Below, piece after piece: positions 12,289 to 43,602 of a stretch of 44,465 bases of DNA. The translations under genes were made by a program, and so were the position numbers. The stretch comes from a virus: positions 1-44,465 of the IMG/VR virus record IMGVR_UViG_3300012954_002158; one strand, 5' to 3'. The number at the start of each line of letters is the position of its first letter. Within the stretch, counting starts at the first letter, position 1. The notes under the pieces were generated by a model. The model was not told the DNA's origin, did no database searches, and saw only the letters and a list, made by a program, of their open reading frames with translations.

Positions 12289-12429
12289 TTTTGTAAAATC
12301 TACCCATCTACCACTTTTAAAAATTAATAAATTTCCTTCTGAAGATAATTTCCATTCCCCTTCTTTATGAATTCCAACCCTTCTACTGTGTTTATTTTTT
12401 AATAATTGTAAGTCTTTGTCTGTGAGCAT
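12253..12429 (-). CDS. Small minus-strand protein, 58 residues, unknown function
   Basis: The minus strand encodes 58 residues starting MLTDKDLQLLKNKHSRRVG with a mid-section EGEWKLSSEGNLLIFKSGRW, basic and probably a small beta fold. It fills most of the gap between gp16 and the 12491 gene and overlaps the gp16 3' end by 36 nt, tail to tail. Support comes from position: a minus-strand late octamer AATAAATA ends exactly 5 nt before its ATG, the arrangement seen at seven late starts here. There is no Shine-Dalgarno. I do not recognise the family. Confidence 0.6.
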   Translation of the reverse strand: MLTDKDLQLLKNKHSRRVGIHKEGEWKLSSEGNLLIFKSGRWVDFTKLTVSTSAFYDF

Positions 12430-12434
12430 ATTTT

Positions 12435-12442
12435 TATTTATT
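12435..12442 (-). promoter_or_regulatory. Late promoter octamer, minus strand, leaderless arrangement
   Basis: AATAAATA on the minus strand, then AAAAT, then ATG at 12429. It is divergent from the plus-strand octamer at 12460, 17 nt away. Confidence 0.55.
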
Positions 12443-12459
12443 AAAAAATTGCATGAAGT

Positions 12460-12467
12460 GATAAATA
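12460..12467 (+). promoter_or_regulatory. Late promoter octamer for the 12491 virion gene
   Basis: GATAAATA lies 23 nt before the ATG at 12491. The predicted leader of about 18 nt contains CGGAG as ribosome-binding site. Confidence 0.7.
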
Positions 12468-12490
12468 AGTGTTATAACGGAGTATTAATT

Positions 12491-13192
12491 ATGGAACTGA
12501 AAAATTATATTACAGAATCATTTAACAAAGAATACGGCTTTAGATTAAAATTTGCCGCAGATTGTGGTTCTGAGCATATGGATATGCTAGAAAAATGTCT
12601 AGCAAAATATAATCTAGTCAGCATTACACCTTTTAAAAGAACACCTATAGAAGAAAATCCTCAGGAGTTTTACAGAATTAAAGGAACACAATGTACATCA
12701 GAAGTATGTAGTACAGATGTAATCCTTAAATACCCTATAAATGAAAGAATATTAGAAGTATGGTGTGCAACAAACATGGGTTTAAATCATGAAAGAGTAC
12801 TTGCATATAATGTTAAAGATCCTAGAAGAATAGAATCTGAAATGGCAGAAGAAAGAGCTAAAGCAGATGGTGACAGACATGTAAGCGAAGAAGATGCACT
12901 TTTAAATAAAGAAGATCAAGCACATTATGAAAAACAAAACGAAGACCTAGACTTTGCTAAAGCACATTATGGCGAAGAATTTAATAAAGAGTTTTTAAAA
13001 GCATTGGAAGAAATAAAGAAAGAAAAAGGTGCAAAATATTTTCAAAATAGTTATCCAGACAAAGAACAAATAATGGGTAAAGATTTAGAAGAACTAGGTG
13101 CTCAAATACACGGAATGCCTAACATGGGTAAAGGTGCAGAAAGCACTAAGCAAGTTTCAAATAACAGTCAGACTCTTAAAGGTATTGTATAA
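12491..13192 (+). CDS. Probable internal head protein with prohead-protease site
   Basis: From the ATG at 12491 (favoured by GGAG and the late octamer over an upstream in-frame ATG at 12416) the product is 233 residues. Its N-terminus MELKNYITESFNK resembles the T4 capsid-targeting sequence of internal proteins. It contains I-T-E|S (cut after Glu9), matching the gp21 prohead-protease consensus (L/I)-x-E|(A/G/S). The rest is charged and helical in the second half (residues 120-200, Glu/Lys-rich). It has six Cys, including CTSEVCSTD. The next gene starts immediately after its stop. A packaged or scaffold-associated role is inference from the cleavage site and position. Confidence 0.65.
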   Translation: MELKNYITESFNKEYGFRLKFAADCGSEHMDMLEKCLAKYNLVSITPFKRTPIEENPQEFYRIKGTQCTSEVCSTDVILKYPINERILEVWCATNMGLNHERVLAYNVKDPRRIESEMAEERAKADGDRHVSEEDALLNKEDQAHYEKQNEDLDFAKAHYGEEFNKEFLKALEEIKKEKGAKYFQNSYPDKEQIMGKDLEELGAQIHGMPNMGKGAESTKQVSNNSQTLKGIV

Positions 13193-24047: not shown

Positions 24048-26051
24048 ATGAACGAATTTGATAAGAATTTTCATCTTAATTTTTCGCCTCTATATGCTAC
24101 ATTTGTTATCATGTTGCTTATGTTATGGGCAAGTGAAGTTAAAGGTGACGAGATAGAAGAAATTGTTGTTACTGCTCAACAAGAAAAAACTGTAAAAGCA
24201 GATCCACTTATTGACAATAGACTTATAGAGGCCATTATGCCTATGTTTACATATAACGCAGGTGGATATGGAGGTTTTATAGGTTATAGCGAAAGAGGTG
24301 CTCAAACAAATCATACTGCTGTATTTGTAAATGGTATTCCAGCAAATGATCCAGGTGCAGGTTGGTATGATTTTGGACATGATTTTGCAAATGGACAAAC
24401 TGTAAAAGTTATTACAGGTGCAAACGGAGTCATTTATGGCTCTGGTAGTATTGCAGGAACAATATTAATACAAGATACTATAGAACGTGGAATGAATATT
24501 AGATTGGACGGAGAGCCCAAGCAATATAGAATAGCACCTTTAGAACAGTTAGAGTTCAGTATGGTAGAAGATAATTTTGCTAGTGCTAGAAATGATAACG
24601 AAGAAATAGATACTTACAGCAATAAAACTGCAAGAATAAATGTTGACTTTGGTGATTTTAATATTGTAGGAAAGTATTCAGATTATGAATATGATTATGA
24701 TAATTGTTATGATTATTATTGGGGTCAAAGTAATGATTGCTTACAGGACGGTGAAAGGTATAATATTGCTATAAGAAATGATTTTATGACTATAGGTAGA
24801 AATTATAATACTGCAGATTACTTTACTGTTGAAGATCCTACTTATACAAATGAAAGTTATAGGGATTTTATTAGATTAGGCAATCATATGGAGTTAAGTA
24901 AAAATCTAAGTGTAGCATTTGGCTTAGATGCAGAAAAAATTTACTATAATACTAACAGTTGGAATAATACTGAAGGCTCATTAGAAGTTAAAACAGAAAT
25001 TACAGAGCCTGGTATATCATATGAAGATGACGATACTAATAAATCAAGACCATTATGGACAGGAGGATATATTGGTACTGGTGAATTTTTAACATCATAT
25101 GTTGGAGATGGTAATTTTGAAATAGTGCAAACAGAAAACAAATACACTGATGATAATGCCGGCATTTATTTTTCAGCAAATGCAAATTTTATATTAAATT
25201 ATAACTTTGGTGTAAGACTAGGTAATGACAAACAAAATGCTCTTAGACTAGGTATATCTAAAGGAGAGTGGTTCTTTAATGCAGGTAATAGTTTTAGAAA
25301 GCCTAACTTATATGAATTGTTTGGCGATAGTTATGTAGAAGGAAACTTAGAACTAGAACCAGAAGAAGGTGTAGGTTTTGAATTAGGATACGGAGCAATT
25401 AGTATCTTTATGTATGATTTTAAAGAAGCAATCGAATATGTACCTGGTTACAATACTGCAATTGATACAACTAGTTTAGAACTAGACGCAGAAGCAACAC
25501 TTTATGTTGATACTGAAAATCCAGAAAATAATGGACCAGGTATAGGTTGTGTTTTAAATCCTAACTGGACAGAAAATGATGCGGCAACTTTTGAGTTAGA
25601 TGGTTGTATTTACAAAACAGTAACTAATACAGAAAACATTTGGACAATGGCTTCTTATCAAAATACAGGATCATATACTACACAAGGTATAAGATATGAA
25701 AACAATTTTGGGCCTGTTGGATTGATGTTAAATTATACAGACACAGATCAAACTAGGATACCTGAATTTGCAGGAGTTTTAAGTTTACAACATAACTTGT
25801 ATGGATATAATTTAAAATTAAACTATGCAGTACAATTAGACAGAGAGCCTGGACCTTATGACTTTTTAACAGATGGAAAAAAGTATTTAGATGATTTAGA
25901 AAAACTTGACTTTAATGTTTCAAGAAAATTTACAAACGGTGTAAGTTTAGCATTTAAGATAGAAAATGTTACTGATGAAATTGTAGAGGTTACTCCTTTT
26001 TACGATAGTAGAGGAAGAGAAGTTTACTTGACATTAGGGTACAAGTGGTAG
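24048..26051 (+). CDS. TonB-dependent outer-membrane receptor-like protein
   Basis: The 667-residue protein has a hydrophobic signal segment (about 14-29) and a probable cleavage near residue 33. A TonB-box-like EEIVVTAQ (37-44) follows. The plug domain (about 50-160) contains VNGIPANDP and VITGANGVIYGSGSIAG, typical TBDR plug motifs. A beta-barrel fills the rest, with FRKPNLYELFGD (about 415-427) and GNLELEPEEG, classic TBDR barrel motifs. It ends in the aromatic C-terminus YLTLGYKW expected of BAM-assembled barrels. Cys pairs (near 223/233 and 505/522) look like loop disulfides. It would sit in the host outer membrane and import a TonB-dependent nutrient, or alter phage adsorption. Base use resembles neighbours. 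A GGAG site and its own early promoter support expression. Confidence 0.85.
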   Translation: MNEFDKNFHLNFSPLYATFVIMLLMLWASEVKGDEIEEIVVTAQQEKTVKADPLIDNRLIEAIMPMFTYNAGGYGGFIGYSERGAQTNHTAVFVNGIPANDPGAGWYDFGHDFANGQTVKVITGANGVIYGSGSIAGTILIQDTIERGMNIRLDGEPKQYRIAPLEQLEFSMVEDNFASARNDNEEIDTYSNKTARINVDFGDFNIVGKYSDYEYDYDNCYDYYWGQSNDCLQDGERYNIAIRNDFMTIGRNYNTADYFTVEDPTYTNESYRDFIRLGNHMELSKNLSVAFGLDAEKIYYNTNSWNNTEGSLEVKTEITEPGISYEDDDTNKSRPLWTGGYIGTGEFLTSYVGDGNFEIVQTENKYTDDNAGIYFSANANFILNYNFGVRLGNDKQNALRLGISKGEWFFNAGNSFRKPNLYELFGDSYVEGNLELEPEEGVGFELGYGAISIFMYDFKEAIEYVPGYNTAIDTTSLELDAEATLYVDTENPENNGPGIGCVLNPNWTENDAATFELDGCIYKTVTNTENIWTMASYQNTGSYTTQGIRYENNFGPVGLMLNYTDTDQTRIPEFAGVLSLQHNLYGYNLKLNYAVQLDREPGPYDFLTDGKKYLDDLEKLDFNVSRKFTNGVSLAFKIENVTDEIVEVTPFYDSRGREVYLTLGYKW

Positions 26052-28038: not shown

Positions 28039-28806
28039 ATGGCAAAATATAGATATAGAATAGAAGGCGGCAGATATGGAGGTGAGCTTGTATGTGGAGA
28101 AGTAAATCCTGCATTTGCAAGTCATTATGCAGGTTCAGATGAGCAAGAATTAATAGAAGCAGTATTAGAATCTGAAGATTATGAACCTAATGAAGATGAG
28201 GATAATGATACATTATTAGATCCAGAAGGGTTACCTCACCCAGGTTTACCAGGCGAAGATTACTATATGTGGGAAAATGATGGTATAGAGCATCTAAACG
28301 CACCTTATTCAGATGGCGGCTTTACAGTATATGAAGTTCCAGCAGACGAATCAGATGATTGGGATTACGATAAAGAAGTATATGAAGGCGACGGAATTTT
28401 TGTGTATGGTAGAGAAGGTGCTTTATTTGGTTCAGATGAGCCAGAAGTTATAAATGAAGAAGATGACAAAGGTAATAAGTATGTGCCTGTTTTAGCATTT
28501 CATAGTTCTGAAAAAGGATCTTTTGGTGCCTGGTTTGTAGATACAGATGAACCATTTGATGAATTTAAATTGGGCTATGGTGTTGTAGAAACAAATCTGT
28601 GCGAACTTGTTGATGCTGTTTACTATGACAAGCAAGAATTAGACTGCAATTATGATTATAACGACACAACCGGTAAAAGTTATGGTGCTGATGTAGGTTG
28701 GTTAAATATAAAGTGGCATGATAGCCAGGAAAACGTTGCAGAAAATATGGAAGAGTACTGGCAAGAGTTTGACGATAACGTTGAATGGGAAAAGGAAAAT
28801 AGATGA
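28039..28806 (+). CDS. Highly acidic hypothetical protein
   Basis: The 255-residue protein contains roughly 30% Asp plus Glu by eye, with clusters such as YEPNEDEDND, ADESDDWDYDKE and INEEDDKGN, and many aromatic residues. It has a small folded-looking N-terminus (KYRYRIEGGRYGGELVCGEV). It has an ideal AGGAGGT ribosome site and overlaps the kinase gene by 4 nt (ATGA), so substantial expression is likely. Acidic early phage proteins can mimic DNA, but I see no family match and this is only a possibility. Confidence 0.7.
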   Translation: MAKYRYRIEGGRYGGELVCGEVNPAFASHYAGSDEQELIEAVLESEDYEPNEDEDNDTLLDPEGLPHPGLPGEDYYMWENDGIEHLNAPYSDGGFTVYEVPADESDDWDYDKEVYEGDGIFVYGREGALFGSDEPEVINEEDDKGNKYVPVLAFHSSEKGSFGAWFVDTDEPFDEFKLGYGVVETNLCELVDAVYYDKQELDCNYDYNDTTGKSYGADVGWLNIKWHDSQENVAENMEEYWQEFDDNVEWEKENR

Positions 28807-29603
28807 AACGAATCTTAATTTTTGGTTTACCTGGTTCAGGTAAATCTACTCTTGCAGAAAAACTAGTTGAAGTATTAGGAAACGCAGACTGGCACAACGC
28901 AGATAAGATAAGAGAAACATTTAACGATTGGGATTTTTCTCAAGAAGGTCGTGAACGTCAAGCCTTGCGTATGCGAGATTATGTTCGCAAAAGTGTTGCT
29001 AAAAAGAAATATGGTATTGCAGATTTTGTTTGCCCAACAAATCAACTAAGGGAAAAACATGTTCCAGAATATGTTATCTGGATGGATACTATAGAAGAAG
29101 GAAGATTTGAGGATACAAATAAACTTTTTGAGCAACCTGACGGTACAACATTCATTAATGCAAGAATTACTGCTGAGGAGTGGTGGACAGAAGAAAAATG
29201 TGAGGAATGGGCAAAGTTATTAGCAGTTGATATTAAAGATCATGAGTTTCAACCAAAGCAACCAACTACACAAATGTTAGGAAGATTTCAGCCTTGGCAC
29301 GAAGGACATCAAAAACTATTTGAAAGAGCATTAGCAAAACATGGGCAAGTAGCAATACTGGTCAGAGATATGCCACTAACTGATGATAATCCTTGGCAAG
29401 TGGATAAGATATGTGAAAATATAGAAATTGCATTGGCCAATCATGCAGGTAAGTTTAGATGTTATCCTGTCCCTAATATAATGAATATTACTTACGGCAG
29501 AGGTGTAGGATATAAAATAGAAGAAGAAGTTCTCGACGAGGAAACACAAAAAATAAGTGCAACAAAAATTAGAGAACAAATGAGAAAGGATGGCGAATTA
29601 TAA
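28803..29603 (+). CDS. Fusion: APS-kinase-like P-loop kinase plus HIGH-type nucleotidyltransferase
   Basis: Residues 1-145 of this 266-residue protein are a P-loop kinase with GLPGSGKST (8-16) and NADKIRETFNDWDFSQEGR, the arrangement of adenylylsulfate kinases. Residues 155-266 are a nucleotidyltransferase with GRFQPWHEGH (160-169, a HxGH motif) and SATKIRE (252-258, the ISSTxIR motif). Similar two-domain architectures include NadR-type NMN adenylyltransferase/kinase and bifunctional sulfate-activation enzymes. Which substrate is used cannot be decided. It sits upstream of metK and apt, in what looks like a nucleotide/cofactor cluster. Confidence 0.75.
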   Translation: MKRILIFGLPGSGKSTLAEKLVEVLGNADWHNADKIRETFNDWDFSQEGRERQALRMRDYVRKSVAKKKYGIADFVCPTNQLREKHVPEYVIWMDTIEEGRFEDTNKLFEQPDGTTFINARITAEEWWTEEKCEEWAKLLAVDIKDHEFQPKQPTTQMLGRFQPWHEGHQKLFERALAKHGQVAILVRDMPLTDDNPWQVDKICENIEIALANHAGKFRCYPVPNIMNITYGRGVGYKIEEEVLDEETQKISATKIREQMRKDGEL

Positions 29604-30235: not shown

Positions 30236-31324
30236 ATGTATCAATTTACAAGTGAAAGTGTCAGTAGAGGGCACCCAGATAAAGTTGCAGATCTAATATC
30301 AGATGCTGTTGCAACACATCTAATTGATAAAAACGTAAATCACAGAGCCGCAGTGGAAACTTTAGTAACTACAAATATGGTTACACTTGCTGGAGAATAT
30401 AAAAGCGACAAGTTTGATAAAATTTATTTAGATAAACTTGTTAGAGAAATAGTTAGAGATATTGGCTATGAGCAAAATGGATTTCATTGGGAAAAATTAA
30501 AAGTTTATAACGAATTACATGGCCAAAGTCCTGATATTGCATTAGGCACTGATAATTTTGGTGCTGGAGATCAGGGACTAATGTTTGGATATGCATGTAA
30601 TGAAACTGAAAACTATATGCCAAGTGCAATACATTATAGTCACAGAATACTGCAACGATTACAAGACGTAAGGCAAAGTAGTTCGTGGATACTTCCTGAC
30701 AGCAAGGCACAAGTTACAATGAGTTATGATGGTATAAACAATCCTGTTAGTATAGATAAAATTGTTTGTAGTACTCAGCACGAAGAAGCAATTGATATTG
30801 CAGATGTAAGAGTGTATATTGAAGAACTAATAAGAAAAGAAATTACAGAATATGATTTAAGCAATACAGAATTTTTAATAAATCCTACAGGTAGATTTGT
30901 TATTGGCGGTCCAGATGGCGATACAGGATTAACAGGCAGAAAGATCATTGTTGATACTTATGGTGGTTATGCACCACATGGCGGAGGTGCTTTTAGTGGA
31001 AAAGATTGCACTAAAGTTGATAGAAGTGCGGCTTATATGGCTAGGTATATAGCAAAAAACGTAGTAGCAAGTGGCAGATATAAAAATTGTACAGTACAAT
31101 TAAGTTATGCTATTGGAATAAAGGAGCCAACAAGTTTATACATTTATGCAGACGGAGAAGTAAGACCTGAACTAACAGCACAGATACAAGAGTTAGTTGA
31201 TTTAACTCCAAAAGGAATAATTGATAGATTTAATTTATTTGATTTAGACTTAAAAAGGACAACAAATTATGGACATTTTGGCAAAAGTGATTTGCCTTGG
31301 GAGGAAATAAACTTATGGACATAA
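30236..31324 (+). CDS. metK: S-adenosylmethionine synthetase MetK
   Basis: The 362-residue protein shows the complete family pattern: SESVSRGHPDKVAD (catalytic His13 and Asp15), NFGAGDQGLMFGYA (about 108-121), GGPDGDTGLTGRK (about 222-234) and YGGYAPHGGGAFSGKD. It makes S-adenosylmethionine from methionine and ATP in the cytoplasm. Length is near that of the bacterial enzyme (384 in E. coli). GAGGTAAA precedes the ATG. It overlaps apt by 10 nt. A phage-borne MetK would supply methyl donor or counter host SAM depletion, which is inference. Confidence 0.93.
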   Translation: MYQFTSESVSRGHPDKVADLISDAVATHLIDKNVNHRAAVETLVTTNMVTLAGEYKSDKFDKIYLDKLVREIVRDIGYEQNGFHWEKLKVYNELHGQSPDIALGTDNFGAGDQGLMFGYACNETENYMPSAIHYSHRILQRLQDVRQSSSWILPDSKAQVTMSYDGINNPVSIDKIVCSTQHEEAIDIADVRVYIEELIRKEITEYDLSNTEFLINPTGRFVIGGPDGDTGLTGRKIIVDTYGGYAPHGGGAFSGKDCTKVDRSAAYMARYIAKNVVASGRYKNCTVQLSYAIGIKEPTSLYIYADGEVRPELTAQIQELVDLTPKGIIDRFNLFDLDLKRTTNYGHFGKSDLPWEEINLWT

Positions 31325-31854
31325 AAGAAAGTATAAGGACAGTACCTGATTTCCCTAAAAAAGGAATACAGTTTAGGGATATTACAAGTATGCTAGAAAG
31401 CCCAGAAGCCTTCAACAAAGCACTTATAGACATGACTGCTGAGTGTATGATGTTTGAGGCAACAAAAATAGTTGCGATAGAAAGCAGAGGATTTTTATTT
31501 GGTTCCCCACTTGCTAGAGATATGGAATTACCTTTAATACTTGCAAGAAAGCCTGGAAAGTTACCCAATCCTACATATCAAAGAAATTACACATTAGAAT
31601 ATGGAGAAGCAACATTACATATACAACAAAATAGTAATTTAAAGCCAAAAGATAAAATTGTAATTATAGATGATTTAATTGCAACAGGCGGAACAGCAAT
31701 GGCATTAGCAACTTTGATAAGTCAATGTTGGAGTGTACCTAGAGAAAATATATTAATTCTGGCCGCAATAGACTTGATTGATCTTAAAGGTAGTGCTATA
31801 ATACAGGATGCAGGATTTAATGTACAATCACTTATTGAATTCGAAGGAGAATAA
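31315..31854 (+). CDS. apt: Adenine phosphoribosyltransferase-like protein Apt
   Basis: The 179-residue protein begins DIKESIRTVPDFPKKGIQFRDIT, the typical Apt start. It has AIESRGFLFGSPLA, ARKPGKLP, and the PRPP-binding loop IIDDLIATGGTA (about 117-128). It would convert adenine plus PRPP to AMP. The ATG at 31315 is preferred because GGGAGGA lies upstream; a TTG at 31297 would only add six residues. It overlaps metK and is coupled to the next gene (TAATG). Pairing with MetK suggests recycling of adenine released from SAM-derived nucleosides, which is inference. Confidence 0.9.
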   Translation: MDIKESIRTVPDFPKKGIQFRDITSMLESPEAFNKALIDMTAECMMFEATKIVAIESRGFLFGSPLARDMELPLILARKPGKLPNPTYQRNYTLEYGEATLHIQQNSNLKPKDKIVIIDDLIATGGTAMALATLISQCWSVPRENILILAAIDLIDLKGSAIIQDAGFNVQSLIEFEGE

Positions 31855-40646: not shown

Positions 40647-41903
40647 ATGAGGTTCATAGAGTTATCTGAACCTCTAGTCACGCAAATAATACTAGAAGCA
40701 GAAAATAAAAATACTCACTTAGAGCATCTGGAAGATAATATCTTTAACAAAGGATTTCAAGGTGCCAAAGAAGCAGTAGACTATTTGTACAGTTTACATG
40801 ACATGCTGGAAGGTAATTCTAAATCTCCAATATCAATGACTACTAAATGGGACGGTGCACCAGCCATTATTGCTGGTAAAGATCCAGAAACAGGAAAATT
40901 TTTTGTAGGTACCAAAGGTGTATTTGCTAAAAAGCCAAAAATAAATTTTACAGATAAAGACATAGAGGAAAATCATCCTGCTGAAGAATTACAAGACAAA
41001 TTAAAAACAGCATTAAAGTATTTGAGAAATTTAAATTGGAATACTGTTGCACAAGGCGATATGCTGTTTACTAAACAGGATTTACAAACTACATCTATTA
41101 ATGGAGAAGATGTATTAGTATTTAAGCCAAACACTATAGTTTATGCAGTACCCACAGATAGTGACCTAGCAAAACAAATTCAGTCTGCTGAAATAGGTAT
41201 AGTATGGCACACAGAATACTCAGGCGGTCCAACACTTGCAGATACCCAAGCATCATTTGGTTTTAACAGCTCACAATTAGGCACAGCATCTAGTGTATGG
41301 CATCGCGATGCAATTATACAAGATTTAAGTGGCACAATAACAATGACAAAAGAAGAAAGCAGTGAAGTTTTAGATGCAATTAGTATGGCTAATAATTATT
41401 TAAAATCTATAGATGCTGATACATTTAAATGGTTAGAGCAAGGGAACGATTTAATTGGTAAAGAATTTTTACAGCAACTTAAGGCACATGTAAATAATAA
41501 TATCAGAGCAGGTGCATTTGATGAGCCTACTAAATTTGCACAAGGATTTGTACAAAAATATATTGACTTTATGCAAAAGAAAATAGACGGCTACAAAACA
41601 CAAGCCAAACAGGATGAAATGACAGATAAGTTAGTTCAAGGTGTAAAGTTTATAAAGCAAAATGTACCTCAAATTGTAGCAGTATATGATTTGTATCTTA
41701 AAATTATAGAAGCAAAAATAAAAATTGTTAAAAAATTAGAAACAATTAGACAGATGCCAACATTCAAGGAAACTGAAAAAGGATATGAAGTAACAGGCGA
41801 AGAAGGATTTGTAGCAGTTGACAGAATGGGTAATGCATTAAAATTAGTAGACAGATTAGAGTTTAGTAGATTAAACTTTGGAACTGGAGCACCAGGCAAA
41901 TGA
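40647..41903 (+). CDS. Probable packaged protein with nucleic-acid-ligase-like fold (KWDG motif)
   Basis: The 418-residue protein has an N-terminal I-L-E17|A18 prohead-protease-type site after a capsid-targeting-like leader (MRFIELSEPLVTQIILEA). Its centre contains TTKWDGAPAI (about 67-76), where K-x-D-G is motif I of ATP-dependent ligases and capping enzymes. It also has FVGTKGVFAKKP, VAQGDMLFT (like motif III) and near the end EGFVAVDR plus LKLVDRLEFS (like motifs IV/V). The order K-DG, GD/E, EG-V, K-V matches nucleotidyltransferase ligases. Whether it joins DNA, RNA or is inactive is unknown. It overlaps the next gene by 4 nt. Confidence 0.55.
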   Translation: MRFIELSEPLVTQIILEAENKNTHLEHLEDNIFNKGFQGAKEAVDYLYSLHDMLEGNSKSPISMTTKWDGAPAIIAGKDPETGKFFVGTKGVFAKKPKINFTDKDIEENHPAEELQDKLKTALKYLRNLNWNTVAQGDMLFTKQDLQTTSINGEDVLVFKPNTIVYAVPTDSDLAKQIQSAEIGIVWHTEYSGGPTLADTQASFGFNSSQLGTASSVWHRDAIIQDLSGTITMTKEESSEVLDAISMANNYLKSIDADTFKWLEQGNDLIGKEFLQQLKAHVNNNIRAGAFDEPTKFAQGFVQKYIDFMQKKIDGYKTQAKQDEMTDKLVQGVKFIKQNVPQIVAVYDLYLKIIEAKIKIVKKLETIRQMPTFKETEKGYEVTGEEGFVAVDRMGNALKLVDRLEFSRLNFGTGAPGK

Positions 41904-42982
41904 ACTTACCAAAAGAAGTAGAAAAATTTGTAAACAATCTAGTGCCTACAGATGTAGGGGTAGATACGGTTGGAGATTTTGTTATACATTACGAAGGGTT
42001 TACTGATGAATGTAATGACGGATATGATGATGATTCTATAGACGAAGTTTATGCTGAAGTGTTTCAGGACTTTGACGATAGGCAAGGAGAAGAAGCAATT
42101 ATCAGAGGAGTTGCAAATGACAGTTTAGGCTGTGAAAACAATCCTGTATTGTATAGTGTATATGGAGAATTAACAGAAACCAACTTGGACTTTAAATTAA
42201 TTGATCAAGAAATATCAGAAGCAAGATTATACAGAACAACATCAGGATTTAACCAGCTCACAGGCGAATCAGTATCTGAACTTTTATACTTAAACACTTT
42301 AATTACATACATGATGTATAAGGATAAAAAACAATCTAAATTCGCTCAATCTTATGCAAAGCAAACTATACAATATGGCAAATACACATTATTTAGAAGT
42401 CATGCTACTGATTTATATCTGTTAGCCAATGTAGTTTCTAATCCAGACAGTAAGACCGTAAGCAGATTGAGACAGCCTGGCAAAAGCGAAAGGTATTTAA
42501 AAAGTTTAAAATTTGATAAAAGAACACATTGGACTTTTATGATGAACATAGCAAATGGTAGAATAACAGATACTGTTGCTAGTCCCTATATGTTTAGGTT
42601 AGAGTCTCAATTAAAAATTAAAAAATCTATTTACAAGCAATGGCGTAGGCTTATAATGGATTGGGAAAATTTAAAATATAACCAAAAGCAATATATAGTA
42701 ACAAAAATTGCTCAGGAACTAAGACGTTTAGGCAGAGGCAGTGAAGTATTAACTCCTGTATCACATATGATTAAATACAGAAGTTACAAAACAAATGACA
42801 AATTTAAAAAGAACACAGGCAGAAAAGTTGCAGGTGCAGTAGCAGGTGGCATAGCAGGAAGATACGCAGGTAAAAAGATTGCACAAAAATTAGGTAAAAA
42901 TGTAGATAAATATAAAAGAGTAGGCACAGGCCTTGGAGCAATAGCAGGATACTGGGCTGGTGGAAGAAGCAGACAAATATGA
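41900..42982 (+). CDS. Probable internal virion protein with glycine-zipper C-terminus
   Basis: The 360-residue protein has an acidic first third, then an exact protease-type site I-S-E107|A108 (QEISEARLY), then a basic helical body. Its C-terminus (about 308-357) has two small-residue helices (VAGAVAGGIAGRYAGKK and GTGLGAIAGYWAGG) like glycine zippers that insert into membranes. Such features suit an ejected protein that helps DNA cross the host membrane, which is inference. It overlaps its neighbours by 4 nt on each side. Confidence 0.6.
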   Translation: MNLPKEVEKFVNNLVPTDVGVDTVGDFVIHYEGFTDECNDGYDDDSIDEVYAEVFQDFDDRQGEEAIIRGVANDSLGCENNPVLYSVYGELTETNLDFKLIDQEISEARLYRTTSGFNQLTGESVSELLYLNTLITYMMYKDKKQSKFAQSYAKQTIQYGKYTLFRSHATDLYLLANVVSNPDSKTVSRLRQPGKSERYLKSLKFDKRTHWTFMMNIANGRITDTVASPYMFRLESQLKIKKSIYKQWRRLIMDWENLKYNQKQYIVTKIAQELRRLGRGSEVLTPVSHMIKYRSYKTNDKFKKNTGRKVAGAVAGGIAGRYAGKKIAQKLGKNVDKYKRVGTGLGAIAGYWAGGRSRQI

Positions 42983-43602
42983 AAATATATGAAATAATAA
43001 CAGAGGCACCTAGCAGAGATCAGGCAAATGCGGCTGAGCAACAAAGAGCTCAGTTAGAATTTGCTCAGTTGAAAAAATTTAGTCCTGCATTTGCTAATGA
43101 ATTTATGTCTCAGTTTAGATTGATTGGCGGGTATAGTGTTGATGCCGCATATCAAAAAGCGGCAGATGAAGCCGCTAAAAAGGGTCTTATTACTTCACCA
43201 GGTGCTCAAGCAATTAAAAATGCAGGGTCAAAAGACAAAGTTAAAGCAGTAAGAAAATTTACTAGTGCAATTCCAGAACCTTCCAAAGGTCCAAGTTTTC
43301 AGCCAGACGCACCTGACAATACTGGAGCAGGTAGAGGTAAATACAAATACATGAGAAGCGGAGAATTAAGAGGCGGTGGTGCAAAGGATACTAAAATATT
43401 TGACCCAGATTATACAAACGTAGGCTCTAAGGCTAAAGGCATGGGATTAAGAGATAGATTTAAAAAAGCATTTGGTATTGGCTCAGATGAGCCTGTGGGT
43501 AAAAATCTTTTTAAAGATTTGAAAAGAGGAAGTGACTATTTAAGTAAAGGAAGCGATCTAGATGCAATTGATCCAGATCCTAGGTACAAATTCAAGAAGT
43601 AA
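42979..43602 (+). CDS. Probable internal head protein with T4-IP-like targeting sequence
   Basis: The 207-residue protein starts MKIYEIITEAPS, nearly the T4 internal-protein capsid-targeting sequence (MKTYQEFI-x-EA). It has a perfect gp21 site I-T-E9|A10. The mature part is basic, low in hydrophobic residues and partly disordered (GAGRGKYKYMRSGELRGGGAK, ending in basic KFKK), as for ejected or DNA-condensing internal proteins. It overlaps the previous gene by 4 nt and is followed by a late promoter for the next gene. Confidence 0.7.
   Translation: MKIYEIITEAPSRDQANAAEQQRAQLEFAQLKKFSPAFANEFMSQFRLIGGYSVDAAYQKAADEAAKKGLITSPGAQAIKNAGSKDKVKAVRKFTSAIPEPSKGPSFQPDAPDNTGAGRGKYKYMRSGELRGGGAKDTKIFDPDYTNVGSKAKGMGLRDRFKKAFGIGSDEPVGKNLFKDLKRGSDYLSKGSDLDAIDPDPRYKFKK

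Follow-up and report, generated by a model that had tools for sequence, protein, structure and literature searches.

DUF6267, a phage domain of unknown function with a predicted ligase fold and a putative head-targeting leader

One gene of a 44,465-nucleotide virus record (IMG/VR IMGVR_UViG_3300012954_002158, analysed over its whole length and hereafter called the window) encodes a protein of the domain family DUF6267, which very likely has a ligase fold, an assignment that is well supported by predicted structures of two natural forms. On the best reading of these models, DUF6267 falls within the covalent nucleotidyltransferase (ligase) superfamily as one of its divergent members, and its predicted shape is nearest to the RNA-ligase catalytic domain. 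We further consider it somewhat likely that the protein would act as an RNA-ligase-type covalent nucleotidyltransferase that is packed in the head, ejected with the DNA and able to seal broken RNA. This proposal is offered as the best explanation of motif invariance, similarity of the model folds, leader enrichment and the content of neighbouring genes, from which we infer catalysis, the RNA substrate, the packaging of DUF6267 and the timing of its action. It would provide a testable enzyme activity for a domain of unknown function found in sequenced marine phages by the hundred and in still more contigs from the environment, and would widen the range of cargo thought to travel in phage heads by an enzyme of ligase type.

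The open reading frame begins with ATG, and its standing as a real gene is borne out by a match to Pfam PF19782 (DUF6267) that spans the full length of the product and represents its sole strong family (Table 1). The PHROGs family to which it is assigned has no known function. A tblastn search with the window protein found relatives in 468 phage records, mostly of cyanophages and also of Pelagibacter, Methylophilales, Stenotrophomonas, Vibrio and Pseudoalteromonas phages; among the matches listed, they are annotated almost throughout as 'hypothetical protein', and older cyanophage records carry them as T4-like gene cluster 71. Our literature search returned no mention of DUF6267 and no report of an RNA ligase being packaged, and no RNA families or tRNA genes were found within the window. 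In S-PM2 record NC_006820 (locus L084:7992-9771), the DUF6267 frame is broken and divided between two genes; in record LN828717 of the same phage it is intact, in one piece and fused to a cytidyltransferase.

Table 1. Features of the DUF6267 gene and of related genes in the window
Feature	Position	Strand	Basis
DUF6267 protein, 418 aa	40647..41903	+	PF19782 E 5e-105; phrog_455; AF2 pLDDT 89, pTM 0.86; ligase structural matches
Leader MRFIELSEPLVTQIILE, predicted cleavage E17↓A18	40647..40697	+	Homologue leader alignment; pLDDT about 41; T4 IP leaders; statistics
Motif I, K67-W-D-G70; predicted lysyl-AMP nucleophile K67	40845..40856	+	Invariant 85/85, 317/317; loop between strands 63-67 and 73-78 (model)
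Invariant K90 in FFVGTKGVF; comparable with K119 in SKGSI stretch of T4 Rnl1	40914..40916	+	Sequence comparison
Motif-III-like Q136-G-D138; Asp replaces Glu of known ligases	41052..41060	+	85/85; QAD in short forms
G184...H188-T-x-Y191 strand, motif-IIIa-like position	41196..41219	+	Invariant; model strand 183-192
Helical insertion, residues about 235-367, between IIIa-like strand and motif IV	41349..41747	+	Model secondary structure; reduced in short cyanophage forms
Motif IV, E386-G387-FVAV	41802..41819	+	EG invariant; EGYVAV in T4 Rnl1
Motif-V-like A397-L-K399-L-V-D-R403; one of two classical lysines	41835..41855	+	Alignment; spacing as in T4 Rnl1
Next gene, 360 aa, overlaps DUF6267 stop	41900..42982	+	No family match (Pfam, PHROGs)
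207-aa protein, leader MKIYEIITE↓A, probable co-packaged cargo	42979..43602	+	Strict leader match; no family match
P-loop kinase fused to FGRxNPPTxGH-type nucleotidyltransferase domain, possible distal partner	28803..29603	+	AAA_33 8e-7, CTP_transf_like 2e-4; phrog_10255 kinase

The window protein contains, in ligase order, the motif run TKWDGAPAI, QGDMLF (136-141), HTEY (188-191), EGFVAV (386-391) and KLVDR (399-403). Several hundred relatives were pooled from IMG/VR and bacterial genome bins, and 85 diverse ones, with 34-78% identity to the window protein, were aligned (alignment A3). K67, W68, D69, G70, A71 and P72 are identical in all 85, as are K90, Q136, G137, D138, H188, T189, Y191, N283, K357, E386, G387 and K399. 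Two locus scans had the motif-I peptide among their seeds, which biases conservation in them, and they were not relied on by themselves; a recount drew on 320 loci from scans whose seed peptides were free of motifs I, III, IV and V. K67, D69, G70, K90 and D138 were kept there at 317/317 loci, the remainder being gaps, and E386, G387 and K399 at all 243 aligned loci. A chance occurrence of the KxDG motif is ruled out by this invariance at loci found without it. The original prediction of a conserved K-x-D-G followed by segments resembling motifs III, IV and V is thus upheld beyond chance, with the nucleophile at residue 67 (40845-40847) and not, as numbered there, at Lys68.

Some of the motifs depart from their classical forms. 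An invariant Asp (D138) occupies the acidic position of motif III, where ligases usually have Glu, and motif V, with K399 in 85/85, V401 in 83/85 and R403 in 84/85 sequences of A3, has Val at the position of the second classical Lys. The candidate aromatic residue of motif IIIa, Y191, is invariant and sits on a strand of the model. From motif IV to motif V, the spacing between Glu and Lys is 13, the same as that of E227 to K240 in T4 Rnl1. In naturally short versions of around 300 aa (S-CAM22, P-SSM4), most of the stretch between IIIa and IV is gone and KWDG, QAD, HTxY, EGFV and KLVDR are retained.

The long form was folded by AlphaFold2 on the A3 alignment, giving a model in which residues 1-22 are disordered, and the natural short form was folded separately (pLDDT 91, pTM 0.86) because the helical insertion confused the Foldseek search of the long model. 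With a structural aligner, ligases occupied 49 of the best 50 rows for the long form, including all of the top 12, with a helical bundle in the remaining row, and every one of the best 50 rows for the short form. The best match of both was the RNA ligase of Naegleria gruberi (NgrRnl), at Z 8.5 and an rmsd of 3.7 over 182 residues for the long form and at Z 8.4 and 4.0 over 174 residues for the short form. Further Z values were 7.4 (Trl1), 7.3 (T4 Rnl1) and 7.2 (T4 Rnl2) for the long form, and 8.0 (T4 Rnl1), 7.0 (Trl1), 6.8 (T4 Rnl2) and 6.7 (T. brucei REL1) for the short form. The aligned spans start about 26-50 residues ahead of motif I and stop 12-13 past motif V in both partners (for instance at residue 252 of T4 Rnl1, 12 past K240, and at residue 293 of the short form, 13 past K280), and because the span ends agree, we take the motifs to be in register. 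Foldseek against the PDB gave nothing significant for either model (E 0.14 and above), although ligases dominated the short-form list, and a search of BFVD returned only further DUF6267 relatives and weak RNA ligases. As a Z of about 8 is close to the values that common arrangements also reach and is not decisive alone, the fold is assigned from three lines taken together: the uniform identity of the matches as ligases, the use of two distinct models, and motif residues whose invariance was established independently. The lack of a ligase-fold match and a K-x-D-G that varies among homologues had been named beforehand as the points on which the idea would fall; instead, both models retrieved DNA and RNA ligases, and the K-x-D-G is invariant.

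By sequence, no significant link to a known ligase family emerged from Pfam, NCBIfam, PHROGs or a PDB sequence search, and the PDB profile search was empty. The HMM-HMM comparison that had been proposed as a check likewise gave no significant match, as hhalign E values lay at 0.035-0.26, that is, about 0.04 for the Rnl1 alignment, over motifs IV-V only, and 0.26 for the Rnl2 alignment. The K-x-K form of motif V in the T4 Rnl1 and Rnl2 families is replaced in the window protein by K399-L-V401. Since DUF6267 is not Rnl1 or Rnl2 by sequence, carries Asp in motif III and has no second motif-V Lys, we file it in the superfamily and in no named ligase family. With regard to the type of enzyme, an OB-fold with motif VI after motif V is absent from the long and short models; the modelled window chain stops 19 residues beyond K399, with one helix, and the short form 18 residues beyond K280. 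Because this leaves no room for an OB-fold, an RNA-ligase type is favoured over a DNA ligase or a capping enzyme. Of the ATP-dependent ligases and capping enzymes originally named, an RNA-ligase type is thus preferred, and capping enzymes, which do not occur among the listed structural-aligner rows and reach only E 1.2 in Foldseek, are less likely.

The two closest comparisons are instructive in what they share and what they do not. T4 Rnl1 (gp63) and its relatives have in common with DUF6267 the KxDG, a Lys in an SK/TK-G stretch, an acidic motif III, an EGYVAV-like motif IV, the first motif-V Lys and its distance from the motif-IV Glu, and the models reach Z 7.3-8.0 against T4 Rnl1. However, DUF6267 has a single motif-V Lys and no significant sequence-profile match to T4 Rnl1, and in place of the Rnl1-type C-terminal domain it has the helical insertion between IIIa and IV and the head-targeting leader. 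Both models match the N. gruberi enzyme (Rnl5 type, 5cot/6vt0) best, at Z 8.4-8.5 over 174-182 residues, and the predicted Lys nucleophile, the motif-IV Glu and the motif-V Lys are in register as judged by the span ends. In contrast, that enzyme is matched only from about residue 140 on, its N-terminal part not being common to DUF6267; identity is 9-11%, and its motif V is KxK.

We give RNA an even chance of being the substrate. An enzyme of the same fold and packaging could instead seal the incoming phage DNA at nicks or at its ends, and DNA ligases are numerous among the structural matches, the gene sits beside uvsX, gp41 and the DNA polymerase (recombination and replication genes), and leader-bearing genes upstream look nuclease-like by eye. 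We regard a DNA substrate as unlikely, however, in view of the missing OB-fold and motif VI, the higher rank of RNA ligases over DNA ligases in the short-form search, the separate annotated DNA ligase of phage DLP_6 and the RNA-repair families to which some neighbours belong. Circularisation of genome ends, which had also been suggested, gained no specific support.

The leader of the window protein, MRFIELSEPLVTQIILE↓A (the arrow marks predicted cleavage), is common to its nearest kin (variants such as IILE↓A and IICE↓A) and agrees with the cleavage consensus of T4 gp21, (L/I)-x-E↓A/G/S. More diverse homologues start with MKSYKQFLVE↓A, MKTFKKFIAE↓D or MLSFKNYLAE↓A, and a conserved KNxH core follows directly. 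In the T4 record NC_000866, ipI starts with MKTFKEFTSTTTPVSTITE↓A, and ipII and ipIII start with MKTYQEFIAE↓A. Such leaders bring the T4 internal proteins into the head (PMC3012670, PMC9391042), and IPI-IPIII and Alt share with DUF6267 the N-terminal capsid-targeting leader and the LxE↓A-type cleavage. The cargo is unrelated, the T4 internal proteins being small anti-restriction proteins. A strict leader expression of T4-internal-protein-like form, MKxFxx[FY][LI]xE↓A, tuned on the MKxFxxFLxE type, misses the window's own, longer leader, which is covered only by the broader pattern of the family. The strict expression was found at the DUF6267 gene in 68/113 loci versus 0.6 in shuffles, at gene +2 in 33/84 versus 0.1, at gene -1 in 24/97 versus 0.35, at gene +1 in 11/97 and at gene -2 in 7/84, with frequencies near zero at -3 to -6; in DLP_6 it occurs on three of 132 ORFs, DUF6267 included. 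The head-targeting leader originally proposed is therefore backed by comparative statistics, and the analogy drawn with T4 Alt holds for the delivery route and not for the activity, as Alt is an ADP-ribosyltransferase.

Judging from sequence, then, packaging of DUF6267 in the head is probable in leader-bearing lineages. It is unlikely, in our estimate, that the ligase-like enzyme acts only once expressed in the cell and that its leader has nothing to do with the head. This explanation would account for the leaderless Prochlorococcus and Synechococcus forms (which start MSKNTHLEH or MPNKHLEH) and for S-SZBM1, whose leaderless DUF6267, encoded beside the partner gene described below, is absent from the virion proteome given in Table 1 of PMC9146016. 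It sits poorly with a leader frequency about 100 times that of shuffles and confined to this gene group, with the match of DUF6267 leaders to those of T4 ipII and ipIII, and with the correlated presence of leaders on DUF6267 and on its partner (both in 41 loci, neither in 9, mixed in 7 and 3; Fisher p 1e-4, uncorrected for phylogeny). A literature search, in which HTVC008M, Melnitz and DLP_6 were searched by name, found no virion proteome of a phage with a leader-bearing DUF6267.

The commonest partner of DUF6267, a +1/+2 gene that adjoins it in 73/113 loci and bears the strict leader in 36, is an FGRxNPPTxGH nucleotidyltransferase (phrog_395) that is NMNAT-like and no classical RNA-repair enzyme; in S-PM2 it is fused to DUF6267 in a 591-aa protein, both parts of which are covered by phrog_455. 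The partner carries the leader MRFRQFIIE↓A in S-SZBM1, where it was detected in CsCl-purified virions by mass spectrometry (PMC9146016, Table 1), and MKNFSSFLTE↓A in S-CREM2, where PMC10665884 reports likewise, with the authors' caution that such virion proteins may be preparation contaminants. In S-CREM2, no DUF6267 lies beside the gene within the 20 kb examined. The cyanophage virion NMNAT/cytidylyltransferase proteins of S-SZBM1, S-CREM2 and S-SCSM1 thus offer a parallel in their reported virion detection, in the leader of the two members checked and, for S-SZBM1, in a gene neighbourhood shared with DUF6267, but they belong to another enzyme family. The portions of the published accounts available to us do not mention the leader as an explanation of their packaging. 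One leader-based explanation might cover the kinase- and NMNAT-like enzymes that recur in cyanophage virions. As a side observation, the partner often has a C-terminal DUF5824 (L285:3185-5254, L296:3177-5471).

The frequency and occasional fusion of this partner raise the alternative of a lysyl-NMP enzyme with another acceptor, capping-like or protein-modifying, which might use or make NAD+ together with the NMNAT-like protein. NAD+-ligase adenylation domains show weakly in Foldseek, and the second motif-V Lys is missing, as this alternative would allow. We nevertheless hold it to be rather improbable, because the best structural rows contain no capping enzyme, the chain lacks the OB-fold that capping requires, and motif IV, EG[FY]VAV, resembles that of T4 Rnl1. 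Least likely is a catalytically dead ligase-fold protein serving as an internal head or DNA-binding component, which would fit the unusual motifs III and V but not the invariance of all putative catalytic residues at 34-45% identity.

Neighbours of RNA-repair type occur in a smaller number of loci, and most neighbouring genes have no assigned function. They include a HAD_SAK_1 RNA-repair phosphatase at locus L321 (PF10307, 1.7e-6, above the cut-off), leader-bearing HADs resembling the PNK phosphatase domain at L253, L262 and L349 (phrog_415, 3e-9), zeta/PNK-like kinases near DUF6267 in nine loci, and, at L347 and L350, a pair of kinases together with a leader-bearing Pol-beta NTase that is joined to the nucleotidyltransferase. 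A review of jumbo phages describes the same set, a ligase with PNK, an HAD phosphatase and a Pol-beta NTase, as phage RNA repair (PMC7824862). At the last two loci, DUF6267, the two P-loop kinases and the Pol-beta NTase-HxGH nucleotidyltransferase fusion form a compact run with several leaders (L347:7224-11626, L350:5797-9360). Directly upstream of DUF6267 (L252:4196-4999, L260:3717-4772, L305:3904-5004 and others) lie genes of several unrelated-looking families, many of them leader-bearing, whose TD...SLK or GDIE..IEIK patterns recall PD-(D/E)XK nucleases by eye; neither Pfam nor PHROGs supports this identity.

In the favoured reading of a packaged RNA-ligase-type enzyme, DUF6267 would be made as a precursor that its N-terminal leader directs into the prohead core, where the prohead protease would cut the leader off at E17↓A. 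The mature enzyme would leave the head with the DNA, alongside its leader-bearing neighbours. Lys67 is predicted to attack ATP to give lysyl-AMP, from which the AMP would be transferred to a 5'-phosphate end before the adjacent 3'-OH is sealed, so that host-made breaks, most likely in tRNA or other RNA, could be mended ahead of phage gene expression. RNA repair by T4 Rnl1 and Pnkp has to await their synthesis in the infected cell; arrival together with the DNA would give repair a lead over defences that cleave tRNA immediately. A broader scheme, which we put forward tentatively and consider doubtful, is that T4-like marine phages inject a ready-made kit for healing and sealing RNA ends, comprising the DUF6267 ligase, a kinase, a HAD phosphatase and nucleotidyltransferases, each with the common leader, and so repair RNA cut by first-response host defences before any of their own genes are expressed.

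Elsewhere in the window, the gene at 12416-13192, which lies between head-closure and terminase genes, encodes a virion structural protein of phrog_14802, and an internal start would give it a head-targeting-like leader, MELKNYITE↓S. Two adjacent genes (30236-31324 and 31297-31854) resemble, by eye, S-adenosylmethionine synthetase and adenine phosphoribosyltransferase and are possible auxiliary metabolic genes. A 667-aa protein (24048-26051) with a weak PHROG match has a signal-peptide-like start and a sequence, IEEIVVTA, that resembles the TonB-box region of outer-membrane receptors.
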